A stretch of 60,234 bases of DNA from a virus. Below the pieces are notes generated by a model that saw nothing but the letters and a program-made list of their open reading frames with translations, searched no databases and had not been told where the DNA came from. Location of the stretch: the IMG/VR virus record IMGVR_UViG_3300037488_001588, positions 1-60,234 of that record, one strand, 5' to 3'. The position numbers and the translations under genes were made by a program. Positions 2,327 to 60,234 of the stretch are shown piece by piece; position 1 is the stretch's first letter, and each line of letters opens with the position of its first letter.

Positions 2327-2372
2327 TTCCGTGGTAGGAACCAACGCCCCGGCGATCACTCGCCGGGGCGTT
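2327..2372 (-). promoter_or_regulatory. Stem-loop plus conserved leader before the primase gene
   Basis: A perfect 13-bp stem (arms 2343-2355 and 2360-2372, loop TCAC) is followed on the minus strand, 4 bases later, by CCTACCACGGAA (2338-2327). The same CTACCACGG core lies in front of other early genes and the polymerase. The stem could also terminate the upstream small-gene operon. The only T-rich flank (TTCTTCGTTCT) is on the plus strand, so a simple leftward terminator is not obvious. Confidence 0.6.
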
Positions 2373-2407
2373 CTTCGTTCTAGCCTTGTGTCGATGTCAC
2401 GGCAACG

Positions 2408-2698
2408 TCACTTCGAGCGACGCTCCTTGAACACCTTCTCTGCCTCGATCAGCTTGTCGCGGATCGCGGTCTCGTCGTAGTCGACCATGATATCCCCGAC
2501 GGTACGCACGCCCTCGTCGTCCTTCCAGACGCGCGTTCCGAACTGGGCGTCGATCCCCACCCACACACGATCGCCAGCGGCGGCGACCCTTGCCCGGTAT
2601 CTGGTCGTGCTGTACTCATTGACGATCCGCTGCACGGCAGCGTTCGCAGCCGCCCGAACGGCTATGGTCGCAAGCAATTCTTCCTTCGTCGGCTTCAT
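2408..2698 (-). CDS. Hypothetical small early protein (96 aa)
   Basis: No family recognised. It starts with MKPTKEELLATIAVRA; an upstream in-frame extension exists but overlaps the preceding gene. It has a helical, alanine-rich N-terminus, a central segment RYRARVAAAGDRVWVGID and a charged C-terminus ending in KVFKERRSK. It is the last gene of the chain of small genes running from 4751 down to 2408, which nearly all overlap or abut and are presumably translationally coupled. A stem-loop follows about 35 bases downstream. Confidence 0.7.
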   Translation of the reverse strand: MKPTKEELLATIAVRAAANAAVQRIVNEYSTTRYRARVAAAGDRVWVGIDAQFGTRVWKDDEGVRTVGDIMVDYDETAIRDKLIEAEKVFKERRSK

Positions 2699-2700
2699 CG

Positions 2701-2994
2701 CTACGTCTCCTTCGCTGCGCGGACCAGCACCCTCGCCGTGCCGGTGAGTTTCACGACCTGCCACTCGTCGGGGCACGTACGACGCGCCTGTCCTTCGTCG
2801 TTGTAGGCCGTATAGGCCGTGCCTGTGGGATCAACGAGGAGCCACGTCATCACTTCGACGTCCTTGTAGCGCGGCAGCGCCGCGAGGTGCGCGCGCGCGG
2901 CGGCAATCACCACCTTAGCTCTCGGGCTGAGGTTCACACGTGTGTCGTAGACGTCAAGCGCCTCTTCCAGCTCCTGCGGGTCAATGTCGCTCAT
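2701..2994 (-). CDS. Hypothetical small early protein (97 aa)
   Basis: Function unknown. The N-terminus MSDIDPQELEEALDVYD is acidic, and the C-terminal half contains EWQVVKLTGTARVLV, a pattern seen in many short phage proteins of unknown role. The ATG at 2994 overlaps the stop of the upstream gene as ATGA, which fixes the start over a longer in-frame extension. It ends two bases before the next start. Confidence 0.72.
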   Translation of the reverse strand: MSDIDPQELEEALDVYDTRVNLSPRAKVVIAAARAHLAALPRYKDVEVMTWLLVDPTGTAYTAYNDEGQARRTCPDEWQVVKLTGTARVLVRAAKET

Positions 2995-3260
2995 TTCTTT
3001 ATCTCCTTCGATGCTGCTGCGATCATGGCGGCCCAAATGTCCGGCAATTCACCATCGTCGTCGGTCATGCAGGTCATGCCCGCGTTGATCATCGCCTGCG
3101 TCGGCTCCACCGGCACCACCGCCATCCCTGATTTCTCTAGTAGGGCCAGCATGTATTCGGCCTGCTCGATAAACAGTTCCGAAAACTTTTCGTATTCGAC
3201 TTCCTCGAAAGAGGCTCCAGCCCTCGCCATCACCTCTATGATCTTGGCTCGGTCGCTCAT
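2991..3260 (-). CDS. Hypothetical protein with VVPVEPT motif, paralog A (89 aa)
   Basis: It begins MSDRAKIIEVMAR, identical to the start of the next upstream gene, and carries MAVVPVEPTQAMI in its middle. The V-V-P-V-E-P-T signature recurs in many phage accessory proteins of unknown function. The first 36 coding bases are identical to those of the neighbour at 3257-3619, so this is a local duplication or N-terminal swap. Its ATG overlaps the upstream stop, and its stop overlaps the downstream start (ATGA). Confidence 0.75.
   Translation of the reverse strand: MSDRAKIIEVMARAGASFEEVEYEKFSELFIEQAEYMLALLEKSGMAVVPVEPTQAMINAGMTCMTDDDGELPDIWAAMIAAASKEIKK
3225..3260. repeat. 36-bp perfect direct repeat, copy 1
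   Basis: This covers the first 12 codons (MSDRAKIIEVMA) of paralog A and is base-for-base identical to 3584-3619. The identity stops sharply inside the thirteenth codon, which suggests recent duplication or gene conversion rather than slow divergence. Confidence 0.9.
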
Positions 3261-3619
3261 ATCTCCGTCTCCTTTTTATAATCTGGATCGTACAGGTCAG
3301 GCCTTTCGGTGGCGGCCATATGATCCTCCCCCTTGCGATACTCTCCTTTGTCGAGCCATTCCCGTATCGGCTCGATCATGTTCGCCGGCTCAAGCATGGC
3401 GTTCGTCGGCTCCACAGGCACCACCGCCAGCCCTTTGGCTTGGAGGTGGGATTCGTAGGCGGTGAGGGCGGCGGAGGCGTCCGACTCAAACAAGCGCCAC
3501 GTTTCATCAACATACGCGCGGATCTCATCTTCGCTCACATCGCCCACGATGTTGTCGTCAAGGCGACGGCGGCAAATTCCACGCGCCATCACCTCTATGA
3601 TCTTGGCTCGGTCGCTCAT
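3257..3619 (-). CDS. Hypothetical protein with VVPVEPT motif, paralog B (120 aa)
   Basis: It shares MSDRAKIIEVMAR with the neighbouring paralog, then diverges into GICRRRLDDN and an acidic helix. It carries LAVVPVEPTNAM near residues 70-80. It is longer than paralog A, with an extra charged C-terminal tail (GEYRKGEDHMAATERPDL). The start at 3619 is supported by a purine-rich ribosome site and by ATGA overlap with the stop of the upstream membrane microprotein. Role unknown. Confidence 0.75.
   Translation of the reverse strand: MSDRAKIIEVMARGICRRRLDDNIVGDVSEDEIRAYVDETWRLFESDASAALTAYESHLQAKGLAVVPVEPTNAMLEPANMIEPIREWLDKGEYRKGEDHMAATERPDLYDPDYKKETEI
3584..3619. repeat. 36-bp perfect direct repeat, copy 2
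   Basis: This covers the first 12 codons of paralog B and is identical to 3225-3260. The bases upstream of both starts are also similar (purine-rich, related to GGAGA). Confidence 0.9.
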
Positions 3620-3783
3620 CTCTCCGTTTCCTTCGATGCGTAGCAGCCGCCCGAGACAAGGAGGCGTCTCCTGTCGAGCTGCAAGGTCATGTCGGCGCGC
3701 GCGATCTCGCACGCCTCCTTGGTGTTGAACGGTATCGACGTCATGGGCGCCGTCGTCGCCACCCACATGATCAGGATCCACAT
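3616..3783 (-). CDS. Secreted or membrane microprotein (55 aa)
   Basis: The start MWILIMWVATTAPM is a short hydrophobic segment, so export or membrane anchoring is likely. The rest contains PFNTKEACEIARADM and a second cysteine in VSGGCYAS. The arrangement F-x-T-K-x-x-C-E-x-x-R followed by one later Cys is repeated in the secreted protein at 57694-57960, suggesting a small disulfide-stabilised family. The ATG at 3783 has an AAGGA site 8 bases upstream. It overlaps the previous gene by 13 bases and the next by 4. Confidence 0.65.
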   Translation of the reverse strand: MWILIMWVATTAPMTSIPFNTKEACEIARADMTLQLDRRRLLVSGGCYASKETER

Positions 3784-3968
3784 GACAGCATCCTTTCGGC
3801 TGTGGCGACCCACCACGCCGTCGACAGACGGAGCCGATAGCGCGCATCGATCTTCCTTGCCACGCCGCGCAGCGCGTCGCGACGCAACTTGGACGTGGCG
3901 ACGCCGGCCTCCTTCCGCAGGCGCCCGATGACCTGTCTCAGGTGCAGGCTTCTGTCGATGCTGCTCAC
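3771..3968 (-). CDS. Hypothetical basic protein, GTG start (65 aa)
   Basis: The gene has no usable ATG. It begins with GTG at 3968 in a GTGA overlap with the upstream stop and has GAGGA about 8 bases before it. The product is very basic (SLHLRQVIGRLRKEAGVAT, then KLRRDALRGVARKIDARYR), so nucleic-acid binding is possible. No family recognised. Tight overlaps on both sides place it firmly in the operon. Confidence 0.6.
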   Translation of the reverse strand: MSSIDRSLHLRQVIGRLRKEAGVATSKLRRDALRGVARKIDARYRLRLSTAWWVATAERMLSCGS

Positions 3969-4147
3969 CGCGTGTTCCTCATCAGCGCGCCGATCTCCTC
4001 GTCCTCGTTGAGGAGGTCGACGATGCGATCGGCGAAGACGCTGTCGTACACGCGGGCGAGGGGATCGCTCCCCGCTCCGGGTCCACGCTCGTGGATCTCG
4101 AACATGAGACCGGCCGCAAGCGTGGTCGTTTCCTTGTAGTACTTCAT
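3965..4147 (-). CDS. Hypothetical small protein (60 aa)
   Basis: It begins MKYYKETTTLAAGLMFEIH. The C-terminal ADRIVDLLNEDEEIGALM resembles the A-x-x-I-V-x-L-L-N ending of many short phage proteins of unknown role. The ATG at 4147 overlaps the upstream stop. Two GTG codons at 4150 and 4153, closer to the GAGGAGGA site, could add one or two residues. Confidence 0.65.
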   Translation of the reverse strand: MKYYKETTTLAAGLMFEIHERGPGAGSDPLARVYDSVFADRIVDLLNEDEEIGALMRNTR

Positions 4148-4443
4148 CACCACTGATCCTCCTCGTTGTTATTGTCGTCCGGGTTAGCCGTAATCTGGGC
4201 AACCAAGTCGTCGGCCCACCGCTCTTCCTCCACGATGTCGACCACATCCTCCATCGGCATGGGCTCGACGAACAGGCCCTCGGCCATCTTGCGCAGTTCG
4301 GCCAAGGGCGCGCTGATGTCGATCGGCGAGAGAGGGCCGTCGCCGCCGATCTCGATGAGGATCGCCTGCCTCGGTATGGCGGTGAAGCCGTTCTGGCCTT
4401 CATAGAAGGCGCGTATGGCCACCTCGATGACGAGCGTTTTCAT
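4147..4443 (-). CDS. Hypothetical acidic protein (98 aa)
   Basis: The start MKTLVIEVAIRAFYEG is followed by a long acidic C-terminal half ending in DDNNNEEDQW. No domain recognised. The strong net negative charge could reflect DNA mimicry or a host-factor inhibitor, but nothing specific supports that. It is coupled to both neighbours by 1- to 4-base overlaps. Confidence 0.68.
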   Translation of the reverse strand: MKTLVIEVAIRAFYEGQNGFTAIPRQAILIEIGGDGPLSPIDISAPLAELRKMAEGLFVEPMPMEDVVDIVEEERWADDLVAQITANPDDNNNEEDQW

Positions 4444-4751
4444 GTCGACCCCCTTGGAAACAGTATCTCGCCGGTCGTCGCCGCACGCGACACGACCCAG
4501 TTCACCGCGCCGACCAATGACTTGCACTGGTACGTGTAGCCGCCGCGCCACGCGCCGTGGGCGCAGTTGCCGGTGCGCTTGACGACACCGATCAGGCGCC
4601 TCTCGCGGCCGGGCGGCGTGCCGTAGACGTCGTAGCTGTGGATGCCGTCGAGCGTCTCACCGAAGTACGTGACCTCGAGCGCCGGCATGAGGCTCGCCTT
4701 GCGGGCGTAGCCGTGGAAGTGTGAGGGCTTGACCCCGTGTCGCGTGCCCAT
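4440..4751 (-). CDS. Hypothetical protein, first of the small-gene operon (103 aa)
   Basis: Start MGTRHGVKPSHFHG, with AGAGGAGA 5 bases upstream. It contains EVTYFGETLDGIHSYDVYG and a C-terminal segment with GGYTYQCKSLVGAVNWVV. No family recognised. It is the promoter-proximal gene of the chain of nine small genes (4751 down to 2408). A 12-bp hairpin separates it from the DUF932 gene, so this operon may have its own expression level. Confidence 0.7.
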   Translation of the reverse strand: MGTRHGVKPSHFHGYARKASLMPALEVTYFGETLDGIHSYDVYGTPPGRERRLIGVVKRTGNCAHGAWRGGYTYQCKSLVGAVNWVVSRAATTGEILFPRGST

Positions 4752-4773
4752 GGCACTCTCCTCTGAAAGGTGA

Positions 4774-4803
4774 CAGGCCGCCCGCTTCCCGGCGGGCGGC
4801 CTG
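4774..4803 (-). terminator. 12-bp hairpin between the DUF932 gene and the small-gene operon
   Basis: Arms CAGGCCGCCCGC (4774-4785) and its complement (4792-4803) enclose a 6-base loop. It lies 10 bases past the DUF932 stop on the minus strand. The flanking sequence has no clear T-tract, so it may act as an attenuator or RNA-protecting stem rather than a classical terminator. Confidence 0.5.
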
Positions 4804-4813
4804 CCTGTGTGGG

Positions 4814-5626
4814 TCAGGCCGAGACGACGGAGACCGGCTTGACTTCGGCCGCCAGCTCGCTGGCCGCCGCCCACAGCTTGGTGTTGAACGAGACGTCGGC
4901 AGCGAGGGTGCGGATGCCGGACACGGCGCGACGCTGGCCGTTGGCACCCTGCCCACGCATGCCGCCGACGGTCAGGTTCTCCTGCACGCGGTTGAAGACG
5001 TTCCAGAGGCTGGCATTCTCGTCGTTGTAGCGACGGGGGCGAAGCACCTGCGCCGGCTGGATGTCGATCGAGGTGCCTCGGATCTCAAGGGCCTTCTGGG
5101 CGAAGCGCGAGACCTGATCGAGGGACAGGACGATCTTCGACCAGTCGCGAGCGATCTCCAGCGTCTTGGGCAGCTGCGACTGGATCATCGCGATGCCGGT
5201 GTGCAGGCGATCGAGCTGGTGGGCACCGACGTGGCGTAGGTTCACATGGAAACCGCTCTCGGCGACCGTCATGCCGTTCAGGCAGACGAGGCGGAAGATG
5301 CCGGCCGACAGGCTGAAGCCGCTGGTGCGATCGTGGCTGTTGCGCAGGAGCACCTCGGGGACGAGGTCGCCCAGCTCGCGGTGGGGCTCGGCGCCGACCT
5401 TGCGCATGCGCAGCTCGTGGATCGCGTAGTTGCGACCCTCGACCGAGCGCTTGTAGCCCTCGCGGACCTTTGCCACCTCGAAGCCCATGACGCGCATGGC
5501 GCGCACGGCCTGATAGGTGGGGAGGTAGGCGTACTTGGCGGACACGTTGTCGGCCGCCTGCGTCGCGAACACTGAGGGCGCCTTGGCGCGGATGGCATCG
5601 TCGTTGAGGAAACCGTCGAACGGCAT
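4814..5626 (-). CDS. DUF932 family protein (270 aa)
   Basis: It matches the DUF932 phage/plasmid family, with LPTYQAVRAMRVMGFEV near residues 35-51 and a central region with ELRMRKVGAEPHRELGDLVP. The family is common on plasmids and phages and is expressed abundantly in some; its biochemical role is unknown. The whole length (about 250-300 residues is usual) is present. It is preceded by the conserved leader, with GGAG then ACTTCCC directly before the ATG at 5626, and followed by a 12-bp hairpin. Confidence 0.8.
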   Translation of the reverse strand: MPFDGFLNDDAIRAKAPSVFATQAADNVSAKYAYLPTYQAVRAMRVMGFEVAKVREGYKRSVEGRNYAIHELRMRKVGAEPHRELGDLVPEVLLRNSHDRTSGFSLSAGIFRLVCLNGMTVAESGFHVNLRHVGAHQLDRLHTGIAMIQSQLPKTLEIARDWSKIVLSLDQVSRFAQKALEIRGTSIDIQPAQVLRPRRYNDENASLWNVFNRVQENLTVGGMRGQGANGQRRAVSGIRTLAADVSFNTKLWAAASELAAEVKPVSVVSA

Positions 5627-5702
5627 GGGAAGTCTCCGATTGGTAGGTGGCCTGTCTCATCAGGGACGGTAGGCCGTGTCCGTCCGACGCCCTCGCGGGC
5701 GT
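5627..5702 (-). promoter_or_regulatory. Conserved leader and stem-loops before the DUF932 gene
   Basis: The minus strand reads CCACCTACCAATCGGAG then ACTTCCC and ATG (5649-5624), a copy of the early leader. Upstream lie a 6-bp stem (GGACGG at 5664-5669 with CCGTCC at 5680-5685) and a 6-bp GC stem (5687-5692 with 5697-5702) just after the stop of the previous gene. No -35/-10 pair stands out. Confidence 0.55.
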
Positions 5703-5707
5703 TTCGA

Positions 5708-5968
5708 CTAGCTCAGCTGTTCGTAGAGGTTCACCGTGATCGTTTCGAGTTCGTCCTTGACCTTCTTCAAGGCGACCAGACGAGCCTGCATCTCGCGCGC
5801 GGCGGTCTCGGCGGCAGAAGAGCTGATCGTGTAGTAGTCCCGCCCGTGGCAAGTGATGTCACGAACTGCGGTGATGGCGTTCTCGATCGCGTCGAGGGCG
5901 GTCGCGTATTCCTTGAGAAGGACTTTGCCAGAGGTGCCGTTGCTGTGGATCTGGGGGAACTGGGTCAC
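5708..5968 (-). CDS. Hypothetical protein, GTG start (86 aa)
   Basis: It begins with GTG (MTQFPQIHSNGTSGK) and is mostly helical, with a predicted coiled segment AAREMQARLVALKKVKDEL near residues 57-75. No family recognised. A leader copy (GCAACGGAG then ATTTCCCA) precedes the start, which supports it as an independently expressed early gene. Confidence 0.68.
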   Translation of the reverse strand: MTQFPQIHSNGTSGKVLLKEYATALDAIENAITAVRDITCHGRDYYTISSSAAETAAREMQARLVALKKVKDELETITVNLYEQLS

Positions 5969-6044
5969 TGGGAAATCTCCGTTGCGGCCGGGTCAGGAGC
6001 GACCCGGTAATGATGCTTCTAAGGCCTCAGTACGGGACTGTCAA
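5969..6044 (-). promoter_or_regulatory. Promoter-like -35, stem-loop and leader
   Basis: The minus strand carries a TTGACA (6044-6039) preceded by a G-rich GGGGTG. A 7-bp stem CCGGGTC/GACCCGG (5988-5994 with 6001-6007) follows, then CCGCAACGGAG and ATTTCCCA before the GTG at 5968. No good -10 hexamer is seen 16-18 bases after the -35, as in the other early copies. Confidence 0.5.
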
Positions 6045-6052
6045 CACCCCTC

Positions 6053-6373
6053 TCAGGCCGCGAGGGCGGACGTGTCGTGGATGTACTTGACCTCGGCGGA
6101 CCACGCAGGGTGGCAGACGAGATACAGCGACTTGTTGACGGGGCAGAGCTGGTTGCGCGCCCACGACGGGACCGGGCCGCCGGCCGCCACGACCGCCGCG
6201 AGGCGGCGCCCGTTCTCGTAGTTGATCTGGTGCGCCGTGGTCCACCGATCGTAGTCGGCGTCGAAGGCCTTGCCGGCGCGGTAGTCGGTCCAGCCGGCAT
6301 GCAGCCCGGCGGCGATCGGGTCGCGCATCGGGGTGCGGGCGTTGCGGTAGGTCTCGCGGCGGATGTTCTGCAT
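6053..6373 (-). CDS. Hypothetical early protein (106 aa)
   Basis: Start MQNIRRETYRNARTP. The segment MRDPIAAGLHAGWTDYRAG is followed by a helical middle and HPAWSAEVKYIHD near the C-terminus. No family recognised. The ATG at 6373 follows a perfect leader copy, and this start is preferred over a long upstream in-frame extension that would run through the leader and stem. Confidence 0.7.
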   Translation of the reverse strand: MQNIRRETYRNARTPMRDPIAAGLHAGWTDYRAGKAFDADYDRWTTAHQINYENGRRLAAVVAAGGPVPSWARNQLCPVNKSLYLVCHPAWSAEVKYIHDTSALAA

Positions 6374-6432
6374 GGGAAGTCTCCGTGGTAGTCCAGCGAG
6401 GTTGCTGGCGGATCGAGCCCCCGGAGGGGCTC
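6374..6432 (-). promoter_or_regulatory. Conserved leader with two stem-loops
   Basis: The minus strand reads GGACTACCACGGAG then ACTTCCC and ATG. One base before the CTACCACGG core is a 5-bp stem CCAGC/GCTGG (6393-6397 with 6404-6408). Further upstream is a 7-bp stem GAGCCCC/GGGGCTC (6415-6421 with 6426-6432), just after the stop of the previous gene, which may end its transcript. Confidence 0.55.
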
Positions 6433-6447
6433 TCACCGTAAGGAACC

Positions 6448-6663
6448 TCAGAATTCGGTGGGGCGGTTGATCACCGCCTCGGCTTGACGGCGGGCCGCGA
6501 CCTCCTCGATCGTGGCCTCGCGGATGTCGACCAGATGCTCGGCCGGGTACAGGCTGTCGAAGCGCACGACGGCGTTGGTCAGGGCGTCCGCGACCATGAC
6601 GCGGCTGCGGTTCACGAGAGCGAAGCAGACGTTGGCGCGAGAGGTGAGGATGAAGGTGGCCAT
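6448..6663 (-). CDS. Hypothetical early protein (71 aa)
   Basis: Start MATFILTSRANVCFALVN, a beta-rich N-terminal half, then a helical acidic half (VDIREATIEEVAARRQAEA). It resembles short phage proteins of unknown role, with no motif that allows a name. A leader copy with two extra bases before the ATG (CTTCCCAA) precedes it. Confidence 0.68.
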   Translation of the reverse strand: MATFILTSRANVCFALVNRSRVMVADALTNAVVRFDSLYPAEHLVDIREATIEEVAARRQAEAVINRPTEF

Positions 6664-6736
6664 TTGGGAAGTCTCCGTGGTAGGGCGGCACCAGCGCCGC
6701 CCGACAGTCATGCCATAGTAGCGCCAGTATCGTCAA
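6664..6736 (-). promoter_or_regulatory. Early promoter motif, stem-loop and leader
   Basis: A minus-strand TTGACG (6736-6731) is followed by ATACTGGCGCTACTATGGCA, which shares TTGACGATACT and CTATGGCA at the same spacing with the promoter region at 7148-7204. A 7-bp stem GGGCGGC/GCCGCCC (6683-6689 with 6696-6702) abuts TACCACGGAG and ACTTCCC. Confidence 0.6.
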
Positions 6737-6755
6737 GCGCCCTTTTTGCGGCGGA

Positions 6756-6953
6756 TCACGACACCACCTCGCAGTGCTCGGCCCAGACCCGGATCGTGCG
6801 CCCGCTCTTGTCGAGCTTCACGACGTGGACGTCGGACAGGTAGAAGCTGCCATCGGCAGCGCTCTGCCGCTTCGCCTCGGTCGTGCGGACGACCTCTCCG
6901 TAGCGGTCGCCGCGCATCCAGCGATCGGTGTAGGCGGGGATCTGGACCCTCAT
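6756..6953 (-). CDS. Hypothetical early protein (65 aa)
   Basis: It begins MRVQIPAYTDRWMRGDRYG, with GAGAGGAG 7 bases upstream. The rest is beta-rich (VHVVKLDKSGRTIRVWAEH), suggesting a small barrel such as those of nucleic-acid-binding phage proteins, but this is only an impression. An alternative ATG at 7001 would add 16 residues but lacks a ribosome site. Confidence 0.62.
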   Translation of the reverse strand: MRVQIPAYTDRWMRGDRYGEVVRTTEAKRQSAADGSFYLSDVHVVKLDKSGRTIRVWAEHCEVVS

Positions 6954-7003
6954 GACGTGCTCCTCTCGTACTGCTTGCGATACTTGGCCGGTGGTGCTCA
7001 TGA

Positions 7004-7147
7004 CTAGAAATTCCAGCACTTGGCGCCGTGCTCGGCCGCGATCTTGCGGGCCTCGCGCTTGCCGGCCACCGGGTAGACGGTGCCGCCGACCGGGCGGTTG
7101 CTGTCGGTGATGCGGACGGTCTTGTCGTTGCAGTAGTGGGCGTACAT
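7004..7147 (-). CDS. Hypothetical microprotein (47 aa)
   Basis: MYAHYCNDKTVRITDSNRPV begins a 47-residue product ending GAKCWNF, with two cysteines and a basic middle (GKREARKIAAEH). No family recognised. It has the strongest regulatory context of the small genes: a TTGACG, a 31-bp perfect palindrome and a leader copy lie directly upstream. Confidence 0.65.
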   Translation of the reverse strand: MYAHYCNDKTVRITDSNRPVGGTVYPVAGKREARKIAAEHGAKCWNF

Positions 7148-7204
7148 GGGAAGGTCTCCGTTGTTGGTCCGATACTTGTGCCATAGAGGCACAAGTATCG
7201 TCAA
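7148..7204 (-). promoter_or_regulatory. Early promoter with 31-bp palindromic operator or hairpin
   Basis: A minus-strand TTGACG (7204-7199) preceded by GGGGGG is followed by a perfect inverted repeat with 13-bp arms CGATACTTGTGCC (7170-7182) and its complement (7188-7200) around a 5-base loop. Then come CAACAACGGAG, ACCTTCCC and the ATG at 7147. The palindrome overlaps the -35 edge and the expected -10, so it could be an operator, a 5-prime RNA hairpin or both. Confidence 0.65.
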
Positions 7205-7215
7205 CCCCCCTATTC

Positions 7216-8529
7216 TCACCTTCTGAGCGCCGCCCACAGCCCGTCCTGCGTCGCCGCCTTCTGGCCCATCTTGCTCACGATCAGGGGCTCGACCGTGTTC
7301 TTGGCCACCGGCTCGTAGCTGTAGCACTGTGCTGTCGCCTGATCGCGACGGGCGACGCGGCCAAGCATTTGCAGGTACAGCTCCATGTCGTCTGGGACAG
7401 ACCACCACGCGATCGTGTTTCCACCGTGCTGCATGTTGAGGCCGTGGCCCATCGAGGCAGGCGAGACCGGCAGGACCGGGATCTCTTTCCGGTTCCAGCG
7501 GGCGATCGTGTCCTCGTCGTTCTTCGAGCCTGCGCCGATGAACGGGATGCCCGGCCACCGCCTCTGCATCATCGCGAGCTGCTCGCGGTAATGGTATGCG
7601 ATCAGGAGCGGCTTGCCGTTCATTTCATCGACGATGTCGGCCAGCACGTTCAGGCGGAACGGGTCGAACTCCACAGGCTCGCCCCTGTTGTCGTAGACGA
7701 ACCCGCCCGACGAGATCTGCAGCAGCTTGTTGCGCAGGACGCCTGCGGAGCCCGCCACGATGTCATGGTCGCTCAGCGTACTCTCTGCCCTGAACCTCTC
7801 GTAGAGGGCCCGTACGGCCGGCGGGAGGGTCACCTCGATCGGCGTACGCACGACGGGCGGCAGCTCGACCGCGTCGTCCTCCAGAACGTAGGTGAAAGGC
7901 CTGATGATCTCGGCCAGCTCGGCAGGCGTGTCGCCGAACGGCATCCAGTTGTGCTCGTCTCGATCGATCGGATAGAAGTACTTCCGCAGCCACTTGTCGT
8001 GACTGCGTCCGAACATCGTGAGCCCGACCGCGTTCGCCATGCCGTACAGGCTCGTCAAACCGTTCGGCGCCGGGGTGCCGGTACCGCCCGCCCAGATCTT
8101 GAAGCCGGCCTTGCGGACCGCCTTCTGGCGCTTGCCGGTCGGACTGCGCAATTTGCTCAGCTCGTCCCAATAGCAGGCCTCGCATCGGTGCTTTGTCTGG
8201 AGGATCGCGGGCACCATGTCGTGGTTGACCAGCAGCACGTCCGTCTTGGCGTCGATCGCCGCCTGTCGCTTGGCAGGCGAGATCTCGCCCGTGCAGAGTG
8301 CCATGCTCAGCGGGATGCCCCACTTCTCGGCCTCCTGCCGCCAGACGTTATTGATGACGCGAAGAGGCGCGCCGATCATGACGCGCTTCACGATCTTCTG
8401 CTCGATCAATGCCTGCGCCGTCAGGAGGTACGTGAGTGTCTTGCCGGTGCCAGTGGCACTAAACAGCATGCTATGATCTCGTTCAAACATGAAGTCCGCC
8501 GCCTCATGTTGATAGCTGGCGGGCTTCAT
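7216..8529 (-). CDS. SNF2/DEAD-like helicase (437 aa)
   Basis: A superfamily 2 helicase of the type found with VRR-NUC nucleases in phage replication modules. It shows Walker A TGTGKT at residues 26-31, a DE at 122-123 in CYWDELSK as motif II, and QMLGRVARR near 387-395 as motif VI. A CEAC cysteine pair just before motif II is unusual. The start MKPASYQHE at 8529 overlaps the VRR-NUC stop by ATGA; a longer in-frame start would lie inside that gene. It probably remodels or unwinds DNA during replication or recombination. Confidence 0.88.
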   Translation of the reverse strand: MKPASYQHEAADFMFERDHSMLFSATGTGKTLTYLLTAQALIEQKIVKRVMIGAPLRVINNVWRQEAEKWGIPLSMALCTGEISPAKRQAAIDAKTDVLLVNHDMVPAILQTKHRCEACYWDELSKLRSPTGKRQKAVRKAGFKIWAGGTGTPAPNGLTSLYGMANAVGLTMFGRSHDKWLRKYFYPIDRDEHNWMPFGDTPAELAEIIRPFTYVLEDDAVELPPVVRTPIEVTLPPAVRALYERFRAESTLSDHDIVAGSAGVLRNKLLQISSGGFVYDNRGEPVEFDPFRLNVLADIVDEMNGKPLLIAYHYREQLAMMQRRWPGIPFIGAGSKNDEDTIARWNRKEIPVLPVSPASMGHGLNMQHGGNTIAWWSVPDDMELYLQMLGRVARRDQATAQCYSYEPVAKNTVEPLIVSKMGQKAATQDGLWAALRR

Positions 8530-8807
8530 GGCAGCAGCATGAGGTTCAGGATTGCGCTGAACTGCTCCCGGGTGCGGACCACGTAGTGGTCGTGACCCAT
8601 CTTCAGTATACGGGTCCGCCACACTTCCTGCAGCGGCTCCAGAGGCGCCTTCGGCGTCTTGAATTCGAGGAAGACGACCGCGTACGGCAGCAACAGGATA
8701 CGATCGGGCACGCCGGCATTGCCGGGGCTCACCCACTTCAACAAGTACCCGCCGGCCTTGGTCGTCTGCTCGCGGCACCACTTCTCCAGATCAGCTTCGT
8801 ATGCCAT
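8526..8807 (-). CDS. VRR-NUC domain nuclease (93 aa)
   Basis: A small stand-alone VRR-NUC nuclease, the family linked to structure-specific cleavage of branched DNA. The catalytic signature is visible: E4/D6, GVPDR at 32-36 and EFK at 48-50. The length (about 90-100 residues) is normal for phage members. It is the first gene of the leftward arm and is translationally coupled to the helicase. GAGG lies 7 bases before the ATG. Confidence 0.9.
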   Translation of the reverse strand: MAYEADLEKWCREQTTKAGGYLLKWVSPGNAGVPDRILLLPYAVVFLEFKTPKAPLEPLQEVWRTRILKMGHDHYVVRTREQFSAILNLMLLP

Positions 8808-8809
8808 AC

Positions 8810-8838
8810 TTGACCCTCTGTTGTGCTTGAGATATATC
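8810..8838 (+). promoter_or_regulatory. Rightward promoter for the replication operon
   Basis: TTGACC (8810-8815), a 17-base spacer and TATATC (8833-8838), close to the sigma-70 consensus. It points toward the small RHH-like gene, the DUF2800 nuclease, the SSB-like protein and the polymerase. It shares four -10 bases with the leftward promoter. Confidence 0.7.
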
Positions 8839-8859
8839 CCGGTCTTCCGCAGCGTTCAA
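8831..8859 (-). promoter_or_regulatory. Leftward promoter for the nuclease-helicase operon
   Basis: The minus strand has TTGAAC (8859-8854), a 17-base spacer and TATATC (8836-8831). The -10 overlaps the -10 of the rightward promoter within the palindrome GATATATC (8831-8838), so RNA polymerase cannot occupy both at once. The predicted RNA start is about 17 bases before the VRR-NUC ATG. Confidence 0.65.
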
Positions 8860-8874
8860 TGGAGTTTCAGCATC

Positions 8875-9054
8875 ATGGCAAGCCGTCTGGCCAAAGGCAC
8901 CAAGACCACGCGGGTACCGTCACAGGTGCCGGATGCGTGGTTGAAGGTGATCAACAAGGCCGCCGCGATCCGCAACATCAGCCGTTCGCAGTACATGTCG
9001 ACCGTAGCGTACGAGCAGGCCCAGCTGGACGTGGCCAAGGCCGCGAAGGGCTAG
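8875..9054 (+). CDS. Possible ribbon-helix-helix regulator (59 aa)
   Basis: The start MASRLAKGTKTTRVPSQV is followed by two helices, DAWLKVINKAAAI and NISRSQYMSTVAYEQAQ. The strand-helix-helix layout and the S-R-S-Q-Y entry to the second helix resemble ribbon-helix-helix DNA-binding proteins. GGAG lies 10 bases before the ATG at 8875. It is the first gene after the overlapping divergent promoters, so autoregulation there is plausible but unproven. The fold assignment is tentative. Confidence 0.6.
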   Translation: MASRLAKGTKTTRVPSQVPDAWLKVINKAAAIRNISRSQYMSTVAYEQAQLDVAKAAKG

Positions 9055-9063
9055 CGTCGGCCG

Positions 9064-9246
9064 ATGGCGACGAAGAAGACCCGGCCGGCGATGAACGGCT
9101 ACGGCAGCATGTTCAGGGGCCGGCACGAGCCCGCCGAGCCCGCGAGCAAGGTACGAGTGCTGAAGGGCGCGGAGTTCGAGAGACGCAAGCGAGAGCTGGA
9201 AGAACGTATCGACAAACCAAAACCGAAAAACGAAATCAACTTCTGA
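9064..9246 (+). CDS. Hypothetical basic protein (60 aa)
   Basis: Start MATKKTRPAMNGYGSMFRG, then a strongly charged helix (EFERRKRELEERIDKPK). No family recognised. It sits between the RHH-like gene and the DUF2800 nuclease in the rightward replication operon, 9 bases after one and 10 before the other. The ribosome site is weak. Confidence 0.6.
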   Translation: MATKKTRPAMNGYGSMFRGRHEPAEPASKVRVLKGAEFERRKRELEERIDKPKPKNEINF

Positions 9247-9256
9247 GGAGAGAAGC

Positions 9257-10381
9257 ATGCCTACCATCCATCACAAGTACGGCGGATCGAATGCCAGCAT
9301 ATGGCTCAACTGCGCGGCGGCGCCCGGCCTGATCGAGAAGGTGCCGCGCCGCCCCGCAGGGCCTGCCGCCGAGCACGGCACGGCGCAGCACGACGTCATG
9401 GAGGCCCTGATCAACGACCCCGATCTGGTGCCGGAAAAGTTCCTCGGGACCAAGATGGCCAACGGCATCGTGATCGACGAGAACTATATGGGCGCCATCA
9501 ACACCGCCCTCGACGCTTGGGTCGAGATCCAAGACACGTTCCCGAGCGCGACGTTTATCGCGGCCGAGCGCATGGTCATGCTGACCGACGAGGCCGGCGG
9601 AACAAGCGACGGCGCGTTAGTCGAGGGTAATCGCGGCGGCATCGTCGACTTTAAATTCGGGCAAGTTGAGGTTGCGGCGACGTCAGAACAAAATCTTTTC
9701 TACCTGACTTGCGCTCGTAAGAGCCTGCCAGAATTCGCCAAGGTTGAAATCTTTGAGAGCTACATCATCCAGCCCGCCCTAGACCCCGTCGTCGACAAGG
9801 TCGTGTACCCGGCGAGCGTTCTCGACCGTTTCGAGCAGACCGCCTTCACCGCGATCGCGGCGAGCAAGGCGCCCAACCCGAGACCGGTCGAGGGCGACTG
9901 GTGCAAGTGGTGCGACGCGAAGCTGGTGTGCCCGGCCAAGACCGGACGCAACGAGACGCTCACGCACCCGTCCGAGCACATCCTCAACCTCGCGACGCTG
10001 GGCGAGCAGGCTGCGCGCTTGCGCCCCCTGCTGAAGAGCGCGGAGAAGTGGCTGGAAGAGGCCGAGGAGCGCATCCACCACGAGCTGACGAACGGCGTCG
10101 CGGTGCCGGGCTGGAAGCTGGTCGACAAGCGCGCCGTGCGTGTGTGGAAGAGCGAGCCCGAGGCGATCCTTGCGCTGAAGCGCTTGAACATCTCGCCGGA
10201 CAAGTACATGATCACTACCCTCATCTCGCCCCCCAAGGCGGAAGAGTTGCTGAAGAAAAAGACCGTAGACGAAATGACCAACAAGGTTTCCTCGGGCACC
10301 ACTGTGGCGCTCGCGGATGACAAGCGACCGGCCGTGCTACCGGTCGCTGCGATAGCAGCACACCTCAAGAGACTGAAGTAG
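9257..10381 (+). CDS. DUF2800 family Cas4-like nuclease (374 aa)
   Basis: A RecB/Cas4-like nuclease of the DUF2800 family, found with DUF2815 and family A polymerases in phage replication modules. The PD-(D/E)XK-like core is seen as TSDGAL with D118 and VDFKFG with D131 and K133. Four cysteines (C19, and C216, C219, C225 in WCKWCDAKLVCP) match the pattern that binds an iron-sulfur cluster in Cas4 and AddB relatives. Length is typical. GAGGAGAG lies 6 bases before the ATG. It likely processes DNA ends during replication or recombination. Confidence 0.87.
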   Translation: MPTIHHKYGGSNASIWLNCAAAPGLIEKVPRRPAGPAAEHGTAQHDVMEALINDPDLVPEKFLGTKMANGIVIDENYMGAINTALDAWVEIQDTFPSATFIAAERMVMLTDEAGGTSDGALVEGNRGGIVDFKFGQVEVAATSEQNLFYLTCARKSLPEFAKVEIFESYIIQPALDPVVDKVVYPASVLDRFEQTAFTAIAASKAPNPRPVEGDWCKWCDAKLVCPAKTGRNETLTHPSEHILNLATLGEQAARLRPLLKSAEKWLEEAEERIHHELTNGVAVPGWKLVDKRAVRVWKSEPEAILALKRLNISPDKYMITTLISPPKAEELLKKKTVDEMTNKVSSGTTVALADDKRPAVLPVAAIAAHLKRLK

Positions 10382-10393
10382 AAGGACCGACAA

Positions 10394-11152
10394 ATGACCA
10401 GCAACATCGTATCGTTCAAGGGCAACCTGCCCACGAACAACATCACCGTCTTCCAGAAGGCTCTTGCGCAGACCAAGCAGGCTGTCGGCGTCGATGCGTC
10501 CGGCGGCAAGCAGTTCCTGAAGCTCGCCAAGAACGGCGGCTACTGGGTGTACGGACCGAAGGACACCGAGGTCGAGGAAGGCAGCCGCTGGGCGATCAAC
10601 CCGATGTCCCTGAAGACGGGCTTCGTGGCGTGGAAGGGCGGCAAGCCGGTCGGCGAGCGCATGGGTTCCATCTTCAACCCGCCGATCACACGCGACTCGC
10701 TCGACGACGTCGGTGCCAAGTGGGACGAGGCGATCGCCTTCGATCTCGTCTGCGTCAGCGGCGAGGATGAGGGAACCGAGACCCGCTACAACGCCAACAG
10801 CTACGGCGGCCGGAAGGCGTTCACGGCTGTCATGGACGACCTCATGAAGCAGACGACCGTCGATCCGCAGAACATCGTGCCGATCGTCGAACTCAAGAGC
10901 GACAGCTACGATCATCGGGAGTACGGCAAGACCTACAACCCGCTGTTCAATATCGTGGGCTGGTCCAGCATGGGTGCGCCGCCGGCAGCCGAGGAGCCGG
11001 CCGACGAGCCTGCCGAGGCGCCTGTCGCCGAGACCAAGGCCGAGGCTCCGAAGGAAGAGCCTGCGCGCCGTCGTCGTGGCGCGGTGACCGACGTGGCTCC
11101 CGAGCCGGCGAAGGAAGAGCCTGCCCGCCGCCAGCGTCGGCGCGCCAGCTAG
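10394..11152 (+). CDS. DUF2815 SSB-like protein (252 aa)
   Basis: It matches the DUF2815 family, proposed to be single-strand DNA-binding OB-fold proteins of phage replication modules. The core occupies about residues 1-190. The tail is distinctive: an Ala/Glu/Pro linker, then two copies of KEEPARR followed by arginine-rich runs, ending RRQRRRAS. Cellular SSB proteins end in an acidic tip, so this basic tail would work differently, perhaps in DNA binding. AAGGA precedes the ATG. A strong terminator follows the stop. Confidence 0.82.
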   Translation: MTSNIVSFKGNLPTNNITVFQKALAQTKQAVGVDASGGKQFLKLAKNGGYWVYGPKDTEVEEGSRWAINPMSLKTGFVAWKGGKPVGERMGSIFNPPITRDSLDDVGAKWDEAIAFDLVCVSGEDEGTETRYNANSYGGRKAFTAVMDDLMKQTTVDPQNIVPIVELKSDSYDHREYGKTYNPLFNIVGWSSMGAPPAAEEPADEPAEAPVAETKAEAPKEEPARRRRGAVTDVAPEPAKEEPARRQRRRAS

Positions 11153-11161
11153 TATCCGGGG

Positions 11162-11228
11162 CGCACGTCCCGGCAACGGGACGTGCGGTTTACCCGCCGG
11201 CAGTGTGTGGCTGCCGGCGGGTCTTTTT
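11162..11228 (+). terminator. Double hairpin with T-tract after the SSB-like gene
   Basis: The first stem is CGCACGTCCC/GGGACGTGCG (11162-11171 with 11178-11187). The second is ACCCGCCGGCAG/CTGCCGGCGGGT (11192-11203 with 11211-11222), followed by C and five T. This is a classical intrinsic terminator in front of the polymerase gene, so polymerase expression may be attenuated relative to the SSB-like protein. Confidence 0.85.
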
Positions 11229-11230
11229 CC

Positions 11231-11250
11231 TGCTACCACGGGAAACTATC
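11231..11250 (+). promoter_or_regulatory. Conserved early leader before the polymerase
   Basis: TGCTACCACGGGAAACTATC runs directly into the GTG start. It repeats the CTACCACGG core found on the minus strand before early genes, here again immediately downstream of a large stem (the terminator). A read-through or processing role is possible. Confidence 0.5.
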
Positions 11251-40139: not shown

Positions 40140-41054
40140 TTAGGAGGTCGGGAAAGAGCCGTAGATCGAGCGCCAGTTGTAGTAGGCGAACGAGTAGCGC
40201 TCGTAGCCCTTGACCAGCAGGTTGTCGGTGATGAAGTCCACCTGCATGTCGGTCTCGAACTTGATGCGCTCCATGTAGGAGAGCCCGGCAATGTTCGTGA
40301 GCAGGAACCACGGGAAGGCCGAGGTGAGGAAGTCCATCACCATGTAGCCTTCCGGCAGGCCGTTGGCCACGAAGCCGATCGCGTTGATGTCGTTGTCGGC
40401 CGTGCCGGGCCGCAGCTCGGTCTTGGTCAGACGAACGGCGACAGGCTCGTTCTGCGGCGCGATGATCAGCTTCCGGGCACGCGCGAAGGTCTTGAGGCCG
40501 GCGATGTCGCGGAAGTTCGTGCGGATCGAGATCTGGCCGTTGAGCAGCGACGCCTCGTTGAGGTCGACGTCGATGGTCGGACGGTTGGCGACCGTGCTGC
40601 CATCGATCGGGTGAGCGGTGGAGCAGAGCGCCACGCCGTCGCCGCCGATGTTCGCGTTGTAGGTCGTCGCCGTGTTGAAGAGGTTCGCGCCGTAGATTTC
40701 CTTGGTCTGGTGGAAGCTCTCCATCAGGCCGAGGTTCGACGGGTTGAACTGGCTCTTGTAGAGGTTGTCGTCGATCGCCTTGCGGGTCATCGCGTACCCG
40801 AGAGCGATCTCGATGTGCTCCTGATTGTAGACGAAGCGCTCGCCTGCGCCGTTGTCGAAGGCGGTCTGGCCGCCTTCGGTCTTCAGCTGCGCGAGACCGA
40901 GGTACCGCATTTCGGCGGTGCGCTCCAAGGCCATCTTCGAGTCGTACTTCGTGAAGACCTTGTCGTACTGCGAGGGGATCTGCTCGTACTTGCCCTCGAC
41001 ACCACGAAGGCCCGGGAGCAGCAGATCCTTGATCTGGGAGAGATTGACGACCAT
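40140..41054 (-). CDS. Major capsid protein (304 aa)
   Basis: It fits the Mu-type major head subunit family of the HK97 fold. N-terminal LLLPGLRGVEGKYEQIPSQY, central FVYNQEHIEIALGYAMTRKA and C-terminal IKFETDMQVDFITDNLL are typical blocks. No protease domain is fused. It lies downstream of scaffold and co-chaperonin genes and before the decoration gene. It should be the most abundant virion protein. Confidence 0.85.
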   Translation of the reverse strand: MVVNLSQIKDLLLPGLRGVEGKYEQIPSQYDKVFTKYDSKMALERTAEMRYLGLAQLKTEGGQTAFDNGAGERFVYNQEHIEIALGYAMTRKAIDDNLYKSQFNPSNLGLMESFHQTKEIYGANLFNTATTYNANIGGDGVALCSTAHPIDGSTVANRPTIDVDLNEASLLNGQISIRTNFRDIAGLKTFARARKLIIAPQNEPVAVRLTKTELRPGTADNDINAIGFVANGLPEGYMVMDFLTSAFPWFLLTNIAGLSYMERIKFETDMQVDFITDNLLVKGYERYSFAYYNWRSIYGSFPTS

Positions 41055-56484: not shown

Positions 56485-56562
56485 CCGGCCGCGATCGCGG
56501 CCGGCGGGTTGGGTGCTCGTCTTGTCATGCGCCACTATGGCGCTGGCCGCGCCGGGGCGCAA
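56485..56562 (-). promoter_or_regulatory. Promoter and 20-bp palindrome in the leader
   Basis: TTGCGC (56562-56557), a 17-base spacer and CATAGT (56539-56534), with the -10 inside the palindrome GCGCCA-CTA-TGGCGC. Between this and the gene at 56468 lies a perfect 20-bp palindrome (56485-56504) centred on GCGATCGC, which may be an operator or an RNA stem. The rest of 56469-56659 holds nothing else I can support. Confidence 0.45.
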
Positions 56563-56659
56563 GGGGGAGAGGTCGATGAAGCTCGCCTGCCATTTCGTTG
56601 GCCACGGGCTGAAACCCGAAAAATATCCCGTGTTCTTTCGCGCCTCTCAGGTCGGGTTG

Positions 56660-56980
56660 TCACCCCTTCTTGCGTGTCTTCTTGGCCGGCGGCGGCGGGG
56701 GCGGCGGCGGCGGCGGCGGCTCGATCGTCTGCCAGTTACCGCCCTTGTCGAGACGCTGCCGGCGCACGGTCGCGCCCTCCGTGATGATCTTGGTGTCGCC
56801 GTAGATCTCGGTGACACGACCGCCTGTGGCCTGCGCGGCGTCGCTACGGGGTTCGGCGCGCGCAGCTTTCCAGCCGGCCTCGAAGATGGCGAAGCCCTCG
56901 CTGTCGGGTATGAAGCTCATAGAACCGGCGCCTTCTGACGTCTCGCACCATTTGTTGAACGCCTGCCTTGCTAGTGTCAT
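56660..56980 (-). CDS. Hypothetical protein with poly-proline tail (106 aa)
   Basis: MTLARQAFNKWCETSEGAG, then GFAIFEAGWKAARAEPRSD as a helical part and VRRQRLDKGGNWQTIEP. It ends in eleven consecutive prolines followed by AKKTRKKG. The tail is encoded by an almost pure GGC/CCG run that may be prone to slippage. The ATG has GAGGAG 7 bases upstream. No function assigned. Confidence 0.68.
   Translation of the reverse strand: MTLARQAFNKWCETSEGAGSMSFIPDSEGFAIFEAGWKAARAEPRSDAAQATGGRVTEIYGDTKIITEGATVRRQRLDKGGNWQTIEPPPPPPPPPPPAKKTRKKG
56686..56720. repeat. GGC/CCG triplet run
   Basis: About 35 bases made almost only of G and C, mainly GGC triplets, coding the poly-proline tail of the gene at 56660-56980. 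It is the only long simple repeat I noticed in the window. Confidence 0.85.
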
Positions 56981-59077: not shown

Positions 59078-59977
59078 TCAGAACCCCCACTTTCCGGCGC
59101 AGATCGGACCGATGCCGCGAGCGATGCTCTCGGGGTTCGAGAGCGTCAGGCCGCAGCAGCCGCACGGGATCGTCATGCCGGGATCCTTGAGCAGCAGCTC
59201 GGCGCGGCGGGCGGCGTCAGCCTTCACGGCCTCGGCCGGGTTCGCCATGACCTCGGCAAGCGCCGGCAGGCGGCTCTGGTCGAAGTCACGGCCGGGCAGG
59301 AACGTCGAGGCGTCGCGAGCAATCTTGCCGACATAGGTGCCGCGATCCTTCACGTAGATGGCGCCCGGGTTGTTGCCGTGGTTGGGCGCGAGCGAGAACG
59401 TGAACTCCGCGATCATCACCTTCTTGCGGTTCTGGAGCGCGTTGCGGATCGCCGTGACGTCGAGGGTGGCTCCCTTGTCAGCCTGCTTCTGGACGCGCTC
59501 AGCGGCCCACTGGGCGCTGCGGGCCATGCCCTTGACGATCACCGCCATCTGGCCGTCGGACAGCTCGTGGCCGCCCAGCAGGCGCGTCTGGGCGCCTTCC
59601 AGCATCGTGGCGTAGCCCTCGGGCAACCGATCGCGGCGGGCGAGCGTCGCGTTCAGCCACGTCAGCTCGGCCTGATGGTCGGCAACGACCGAGGCCTTGG
59701 CGACGGCCGTGCGCTGGCGGGCCTGCGCGCGGACCTCGGGGCTGGTGGCGAACGTCTTGTGGCCGTTGCCCTTGCACTTATAGCAGGGGCCGAGAGCCCG
59801 GCCGCTGTAGCTGATGAAGCGGCCGGTGCCACGGCAGCTCTGGCACGTCTCGGAGAAGGTCATCTCGCGGATGCGGACGCTGGCCTCGTCCTGCGGGAGG
59901 CGCTTGGGCGTGGAGAACGTCGGGTCGGCGAGGTTGTCACCGAAGATGTCGTCGAGGCGGTCGTTGAGGTCGGTCAT
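59078..59977 (-). CDS. Zinc-finger protein with DUF6011-like C-terminus (299 aa)
   Basis: Two C-x2-C-x-G-x-G motifs (CQSCRGTG with C45/C48; CYKCKGNG with C65/C68) form a DnaJ-like zinc centre. The last 30 residues (CGCCGLTLSNPESIARGIG, then PICAGKWGF) match the DUF6011 pattern. The middle is helical with GYATMLEGAQTRLLGGHEL. Similar phage proteins are thought to act in replication or nucleic-acid binding, but the role is unknown. It is the first gene of the leftward unit and has the clearest promoter. Confidence 0.78.
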   Translation of the reverse strand: MTDLNDRLDDIFGDNLADPTFSTPKRLPQDEASVRIREMTFSETCQSCRGTGRFISYSGRALGPCYKCKGNGHKTFATSPEVRAQARQRTAVAKASVVADHQAELTWLNATLARRDRLPEGYATMLEGAQTRLLGGHELSDGQMAVIVKGMARSAQWAAERVQKQADKGATLDVTAIRNALQNRKKVMIAEFTFSLAPNHGNNPGAIYVKDRGTYVGKIARDASTFLPGRDFDQSRLPALAEVMANPAEAVKADAARRAELLLKDPGMTIPCGCCGLTLSNPESIARGIGPICAGKWGF

Positions 59978-60029
59978 GGGATGCTCCGTTGGTAGGTGCC
60001 CATCATACCGCCCTCGTCCGGTGATGCAA
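59978..60029 (-). promoter_or_regulatory. Promoter and conserved leader of the rightmost unit
   Basis: TTGCAT (60029-60024), a 16-base spacer and TATGAT (60007-60002), a good sigma-70 pair. The leader then reads GCACCTACCAACGGAG and CATCCC before the ATG at 59977, matching the early leader elsewhere. No stem-loop comparable to the other copies was seen between promoter and leader. Confidence 0.68.
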
Positions 60030-60051: not shown

Positions 60052-60234
60052 GAGGCAGCAAAACCGTGGGGGGTCGCAGAGCTTTTTTGCCTGCAACCCC
60101 CCTATAAAGCTCAAGCGGGAGTGCATTTTAGACGCGCCGACACCCCTTGGGGGGTCGCAGAGGTCTTAAACACCCCCTCAACGCCATACGGTACCGCTAT
60201 CCCCCCTTATTCTCTAATATCTACAACTCTTGTA
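60052..60234. other. Right-end non-coding region with G6 elements
   Basis: No gene is seen here. The region has GGGGGGTCGCAGAG at 60068-60081 and 60149-60162, and CTGCAACCCCCC at 60091-60102, which pairs with the first as an imperfect stem around a T6 loop. It also holds AT-rich parts (CTATAAAG, TTATTCTCTAATATC). With the left-end repeats it is the best candidate for an origin, packaging site or terminus. Confidence 0.65.

Follow-up and report, generated by a model that had tools for sequence, protein, structure and literature searches.

In the 60,234-base IMG/VR virus record analysed here (the window, taken over its whole length), a near-identical leader of 18-20 bases fronts the start codons of several early genes. 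Repetition of this leader at early-gene starts is real, and we consider that it is probably a genome-specific translation-start leader of the SAS-like (start-associated) kind, carried by early genes and placed near the 5' end of newly made mRNA.

Leader copies at early-gene starts

The preliminary description of this DNA listed eight starts preceded by leader variants, and all eight sites were read in the record at the positions used here to name the genes. Six of them are clear: variants of CTACCACGGAGACTTCCC, which is also the leader consensus, stand directly before the start codons of genes 5626, 5968, 6373, 6663, 7147 and 59977, the copies of 6373 and 6663 being perfect and those of 5626, 5968, 7147 and 59977 clear variants. 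The remaining two, 2298 and 11251, are degenerate copies in which the upstream half CTACCACGG is kept and a proper GGAG is absent. The copy of 2298 (CTACCACGGAACGAAC) has no GGAG and lies far from the GTG of this gene, and that of 11251 (CTACCACGGGAAACTATC) comprises the upstream half only. As read from the sequence, the copies are:

7148-7169 (- strand): leader of gene 7147 (GACCAACAACGGAGACCTTCCC); a nearly identical copy stands at position 1610 of the relative L055 (L055:1610)
6666-6683 (- strand): leader of gene 6663 (CTACCACGGAGACTTCCC), 2 nt before the ATG
6374-6391 (- strand): leader of gene 6373 (CTACCACGGAGACTTCCC)
5969-5987 (- strand): leader of gene 5968 (CCGCAACGGAGATTTCCCA)
5627-5646 (- strand): leader of gene 5626, DUF932 (CTACCAATCGGAGACTTCCC)
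59978-59996 (- strand): leader of gene 59977, DUF6011 (CCTACCAACGGAGCATCCC); fuller copies in the orthologues of L030 and L054
2327-2372 (- strand): 13-bp hairpin (2372-2343), then the degenerate half leader CTACCACGGAA (2337-2327), before gene 2298 (VapE-type primase)
11192-11250 (+ strand): terminator-like 12-bp hairpin with a CTTTTT tail (11192-11227), then the degenerate leader CTACCACGGGAAACTATC, ahead of the DNA polymerase gene 11251

We observed five near-perfect copies of the start-anchored 13-mer ACGGAGACTTCCC, whereas 60 dinucleotide shuffles gave 0.13 on average, and no further start scored above 10/13 against it. The 11-mer CTACCACGGAG was also tried as a genome-wide repeat and rejected, with 21 matches in the window (≤2 mismatches) for 16.6 expected. 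The genes that carry the leader encode a VapE-type primase/helicase, a DUF932 protein, small ORFs, a family A DNA polymerase and a DUF6011 protein, all of them early or replication genes. Using hand-compiled lists of early and late genes, we found clear leaders ahead of 6/33 early and 0/37 late genes (Fisher P = 0.008), or 8 versus 0 when the degenerate copies are counted too (P = 0.0015); the proposed restriction of the leader to early and replication genes is thus borne out by its frequency at late genes. The stretch between SD and ATG had also been described as conserved far beyond the need of a ribosome site, which holds inside the window and in part outside it, since relatives keep ACTTCCC only partly, though (C)TACCACGGAG is kept.

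Predicted promoters and stems upstream of the leaders

Most of the clear leaders in the window are preceded by predicted promoters, by stems or by both:

7175-7204 (- strand): predicted promoter of gene 7147, TTGACG plus a weak -10; same pattern at 6736-6711; aligned with promoters of L003 and L055
7170-7200 (- strand): 13-bp perfect dyad over the predicted promoter of gene 7147, operator-like; largely kept in L055
6711-6736 (- strand): predicted promoter region of gene 6663 (TTGACGATACTGGCGCTACTATGGCA); pattern absent from 100 shuffles
6683-6702 (- strand): hairpin of 7 bp where the transcript of gene 6663 is predicted to start
6016-6044 (- strand): predicted promoter of gene 5968, TTGACA-N17-TAGAAG; L055 counterpart TTGACG-N17-TAGAAG
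5988-6007 (- strand): hairpin of 7 bp where the transcript of gene 5968 is predicted to start; at L055:4395, a stem in the same place with another sequence
6393-6432 (- strand): hairpins GAGCCCC-TCCG-GGGGCTC and CCAGC-AACCTC-GCTGG upstream of the leader of gene 6373, with no visible promoter
60002-60029 (- strand): predicted promoter of gene 59977, TTGCAT-N16-TATGAT; L054 counterpart in the same place, TTGCAA-N16-TATACT

The predicted promoters of 7147 and 6663 have TTGACGATACT..CTATGGCA in common, and TTGACGATACTnGnGCnnCTATGGCA, present ahead of both genes, did not occur in the shuffles. Note that 7147, 6663 and 5968 have -10 elements that match poorly, that a strict promoter scan of 4400-7400 found no promoter, and that neither a promoter nor a ribozyme is visible at 6373. 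Transcription by a phage RNA polymerase from N4-like promoter hairpins was considered and rejected, no such domain being found by Pfam in four large proteins.

The preliminary description had placed a stem-loop upstream of the leader in at least six cases. Perfect stems are indeed present at six of the eight sites (13 bp at 2298, 7 at 5968, 5 at 6373, 7 at 6663, 13 at 7147 and 12 at 11251), 4-15 nt from the CGGA core, while no stem was found upstream of the 59977 leader and the structure at 5626 is a predicted hammerhead. Stems of at least 7 bp occur at 5/8 leader sites versus 2% of random positions (binomial P = 2e-7) and 8% of other SD-preceded starts, and the z-scores of the upstream folds are -5.4 (2298), -0.7 (5968), -3.4 (6373), -1.4 (6663), -6.6 (7147) and -4.7 (11251). 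These hairpins fall into at least four kinds (hammerhead, promoter dyad, 5' stems and terminator-like), and the stems and dyads of the window sites are unrelated to each other in sequence and differ in length. In L055, both 6373 stems are kept with changed loops (L055:3447), the 7147 dyad shows one compensatory pair and one mismatch, and the stem ahead of the DUF932 leader has a different sequence; this comparison is evidence from two genomes.

Two general functions of the hairpins were rejected. A terminator reading fails because a U tract is present only at 11192-11227; no intrinsic terminator (GC-rich hairpin plus U tract) was found on the - strand of 4400-7400, and the 2298 hairpin is directly followed by GGTTC. 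Likewise, a model in which the hairpins free the SD is not supported, since the unpaired probability of the SD is not above that of control starts. Hairpins other than that of 5626 gave no ribozyme or riboswitch match in Rfam. A further perfect 12-bp hairpin, with neither a leader nor a U tract after it, lies between genes 5626 and 4751 (4774-4803, - strand).

Ahead of 6663 and 5968, a 20-nt stem stands between the -10 and the leader and begins about at the expected transcription start. 5'-terminal stem-loops stabilise bacterial mRNAs, ompA being an example, and the stems at the predicted 5' ends (those of 6663 and 5968, and stem I of the cleaved 5626 RNA) would probably shield a short-leader mRNA from 5'-dependent decay. 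They resemble the ompA type in lying near the 5' end of the mRNA and before the RBS region, with the difference that transcript starts in the window are predicted only.

The 7147 dyad would more likely be a repressor site. It spans the predicted promoter and is mostly preserved in L055, promoters of L003 and L052 also have dyads near the spacer or the -10, and the ESAS of cluster K phages joins a SigA-like promoter to inverted repeats, for which regulator binding was suggested (PMC11373665). One could then read the dyads altogether as DNA operators of a phage repressor that shuts early promoters, the leader being incidental. However, the dyads of the window are mutually unrelated in sequence, which a single repressor would not allow, and we consider this reading extremely unlikely.

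A predicted hammerhead ribozyme at gene 5626

The element ahead of the 5626 leader is the following:

5647-5709 (- strand): predicted type II hammerhead ribozyme (Rfam RF02276, descriptor, pseudoknot); predicted cleavage between 5686 and 5685

The Rfam scan of the window gave two matches, one of which is Hammerhead_II at 5709-5646 (- strand; 38.5 bits for a gathering threshold of 37). It begins at the TAG stop codon (5710-5708) of the preceding gene and stops where the 5626 leader begins. The catalytic core is complete (CUGAUGA at 5663-5657, GAAA and GUC). Stem III is made of ACGCCC/GGGCGU, with GUC-GAAA and cleavage predicted after the GUC at 5686, stem I of GGACGG/CCGUCC, and the stem II strand is GAC. 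A 5-bp pseudoknot pairs GGCCU in loop I (5675-5671) with AGGCC (5653-5649) in the tail 3' of stem II, a pairing described as frequent among type II hammerheads (PMC3088659). The hammerhead is absent from the plain minimum-energy fold, where pairing of the pseudoknot strand replaces stem I, because nested folding cannot hold stem I and the pseudoknot together. A core descriptor made in this analysis matched once in the window and once, in an unrelated-looking bacterial genome, over ~7 Mb of other fetched loci searched on both strands; the hammerhead was not found in the relatives scanned.

With its complete core, stems I-III, pseudoknot and intergenic position in a phage, the element is like the type II hammerheads of bacteria and phages (RF02276; PMC3088659), from which it differs in directly adjoining a repeated start leader; its activity is predicted only. 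Self-cleavage would give the 5626 leader its fresh 5' end, leaving a DUF932 message with stem I at its front, followed by the leader. Of the RNA-processing element initially proposed, this single copy is retained, where a predicted hammerhead abuts the leader, and not one common element made of hairpin plus leader.

The window also holds a match to Atu_At1, a Rhizobiales sRNA family (RF02496), at 56561-56672 (- strand; 72.5 bits, gathering 60), whose presence in a phage may point to a Rhizobiales host. Pairing of an Atu_At1-like phage sRNA with the leaders was no better than with random window stretches and was rejected.

Leaders in related phages and known start-associated repeats

A search of IMG/VR with the leader pattern returned seven matches, L030 being the only relative, a syntenic fragment with two leaders and with CTACCACGGAGACTTCCCATG on the 59977 orthologue. 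The promoter pattern returned 0 matches, as L030 has one base fewer. Protein searches with DUF932, DUF6011 and primase provided more relatives (L055/G001, L003/G002, L054/G004, L041-L050, L051/L052 and L053), among which L055/G001 is 97% identical to the window in the head protein, 83% in the terminase and 65% in the primase. Each group of relatives has its own repeated leader on early genes, rewritten genome by genome: (C)TACCACGGAG in L055, L054 and L030, CCAACCACGGAGA in L003, CATCGAATAGGAGAT in most of L041-L050, AGGAGATCGA in L052 and GGAGTGAAC in L053. The leaders of G001, G002 and G005 lie away from structural genes. Inspection by eye of the annotated starts in the 36 kb that were read of Manatee Spring phage MW202675 (head protein 83%) showed no repeated leader. 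Pseudomonas phage Rollin (OR577172; L037/L040) has its own repeated ACCGGAGA leaders at small-gene starts, as well as a homologue of the 44-aa gene 7014-7147 (79% DNA identity over 97 bases), the only meaningful match in a tblastx comparison that otherwise gave mostly noise.

In these relatives, we counted 37 non-identical copies (near-duplicate contigs among L041-L050 included) with a -35-like box 40-47 nt before the GGAG, with a mode of 43, and a -10-like hexamer at a spacer of 16-18. TTGAC is found within 60 nt of 25/42 leaders in nine records, for about 2 expected, and more distant phages with related primases display no promoter-leader spacing. Given the fixed distance of the -35 box, the leader should form the mRNA 5' end, most likely that of a short-leader message. 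In most copies of the family, and in 4/6 of the clear copies in the window, a sigma70-type early promoter immediately upstream would supply this fresh end. Promoters of L052 and L041-L050 also have imperfect, operator-like dyads in many copies, e.g. TGCCCCATAAAGGGGACA, centred on the -10 box.

These data bear on the initial proposal that all hairpin-plus-leader units form one post-transcriptional control element, which a shared factor from phage or host would bind or cut. The repeated leader is retained from it, and a role in translation initiation comes close to its idea; stems are enriched upstream of the leader, one unit is a predicted self-cleaving RNA, and the 6373 stems are kept in L055 with changed loops. 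But the stems differ in kind (hammerhead, dyad inside the promoter, 5' stems, terminator-like hairpin), 59977 has none, and a sigma70-type promoter at a fixed distance accounts for most copies of the relatives, some dyads lying inside the promoter and upstream of the likely transcript start (7147 and three clear ones in L003). We therefore hold a single shared RNA element to be very unlikely.

Copies with no visible promoter are found at 6373, L030:1076, L003:7235 and G010:12936. Their existence implies that the leader is kept independently of promoters, and suggests that it has a role of its own as well, probably in translation initiation. The SAS copies of cluster K phages that lack an ESAS are a parallel to these. 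They also speak against an explanation in which a promoter-RBS cassette was duplicated and the leader is only the first stretch transcribed from it, its copies staying similar through recombination or recent duplication with no dedicated factor to recognise them. Such a cassette would agree with copies being most alike within one genome and with an alike block that often spans from the -10 box to the SD; yet the stems and promoters around and between copies differ while the leader stays alike, and we regard this explanation as possible, if doubtful.

Gene 59977 provides a case of exchange between lineages. Its protein is 80% identical to the L041-type proteins and groups with them, compared to 37% identity to L055, and L030 and L055 pair up with good support, far from this group. 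Its leader in the window is nevertheless of the L030/L055/L054 type, unlike that of the L041-type phages. At the level of sequence, leader type tracks the genome and not the gene, so that the resident leader is found on a gene that passed between lineages. A trans-acting reader and within-genome homogenisation of the leader would both agree with this; outside the GGAG, the leader would be read by some factor in trans or simply copied. In a fuller form of the former, the leader would be a tag read in trans in early infection, the 5' end made by promoter or ribozyme would select early messages for translation or stability, and tag and reader would co-evolve, hence the resident tag of 59977; this extension is tentative and, in our judgement, unlikely. 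Mosaicism is strong in the window, with a major head protein (40140-41054) 97% identical to G001/L055 and a 59977 protein (gene at 59078-59977) 80% identical to L041. G-rich repeats like GGGGGGTCGCAGAG lie near both record ends (60060-60170 and 20-40), possibly an origin or end region.

Our preferred reading, a translation-start leader, has precedents. In cluster K phages, the 13-bp SAS stands at the starts of non-structural genes and the ESAS, a SigA-like promoter plus inverted repeats, upstream of a subset of them, the function of either being not established (PMC3203893, PMC12699233, PMC11373665). Like the SAS, the present leader is a short non-palindromic repeat that overlaps the SD, lies within a few nt of the starts of non-structural genes only (in the window and in relatives), is conserved beyond 16S rRNA pairing and varies in consensus between subgroups. 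As in ESAS, where the -35/-10 boxes are spaced 17-18 bp, a subset of the leaders has an upstream SigA-like promoter with inverted repeats; these promoters are predicted from sequence in relatives and in the window, with weak -10 boxes in the latter. The SAS sequence GGGATAGGAGCCC differs from the leader consensus CTACCACGGAGACTTCCC by more than two mismatches. In place of the 17-bp inverted repeats of common consensus found in ESAS, the window has stems unrelated in sequence and length, and one copy is coupled to a predicted hammerhead; cluster K phages are moreover unrelated to the present ones by the searches made in this analysis. As the sequence definition fails, we file the leader as a variant of the SAS kind and not as an SAS member. 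In Citrobacter phage Mordin, the starts of 8 hypothetical genes are preceded by a 26-bp SAS-like repeat (PMC4611695), which likewise contains GGAG and belongs to a phage of a Gram-negative host; its sequence is CCAACAATCCTAAACTGGAGAATCTA, and neither stem nor promoter was described for it. Overall, the leader family is of the SAS-like kind already known, in a new sequence form.

Known since 2011, start-associated repeats still lack a demonstrated function. The present phage family offers a leader that was rewritten several times, copies with and without promoters, one copy coupled to a ribozyme, and gene exchange that keeps the resident leader type. Whether such a leader is read by a factor or merely copied becomes directly testable in these phages, and making the 5' end of a leader-tagged message would be a plausible job for a phage hammerhead ribozyme.
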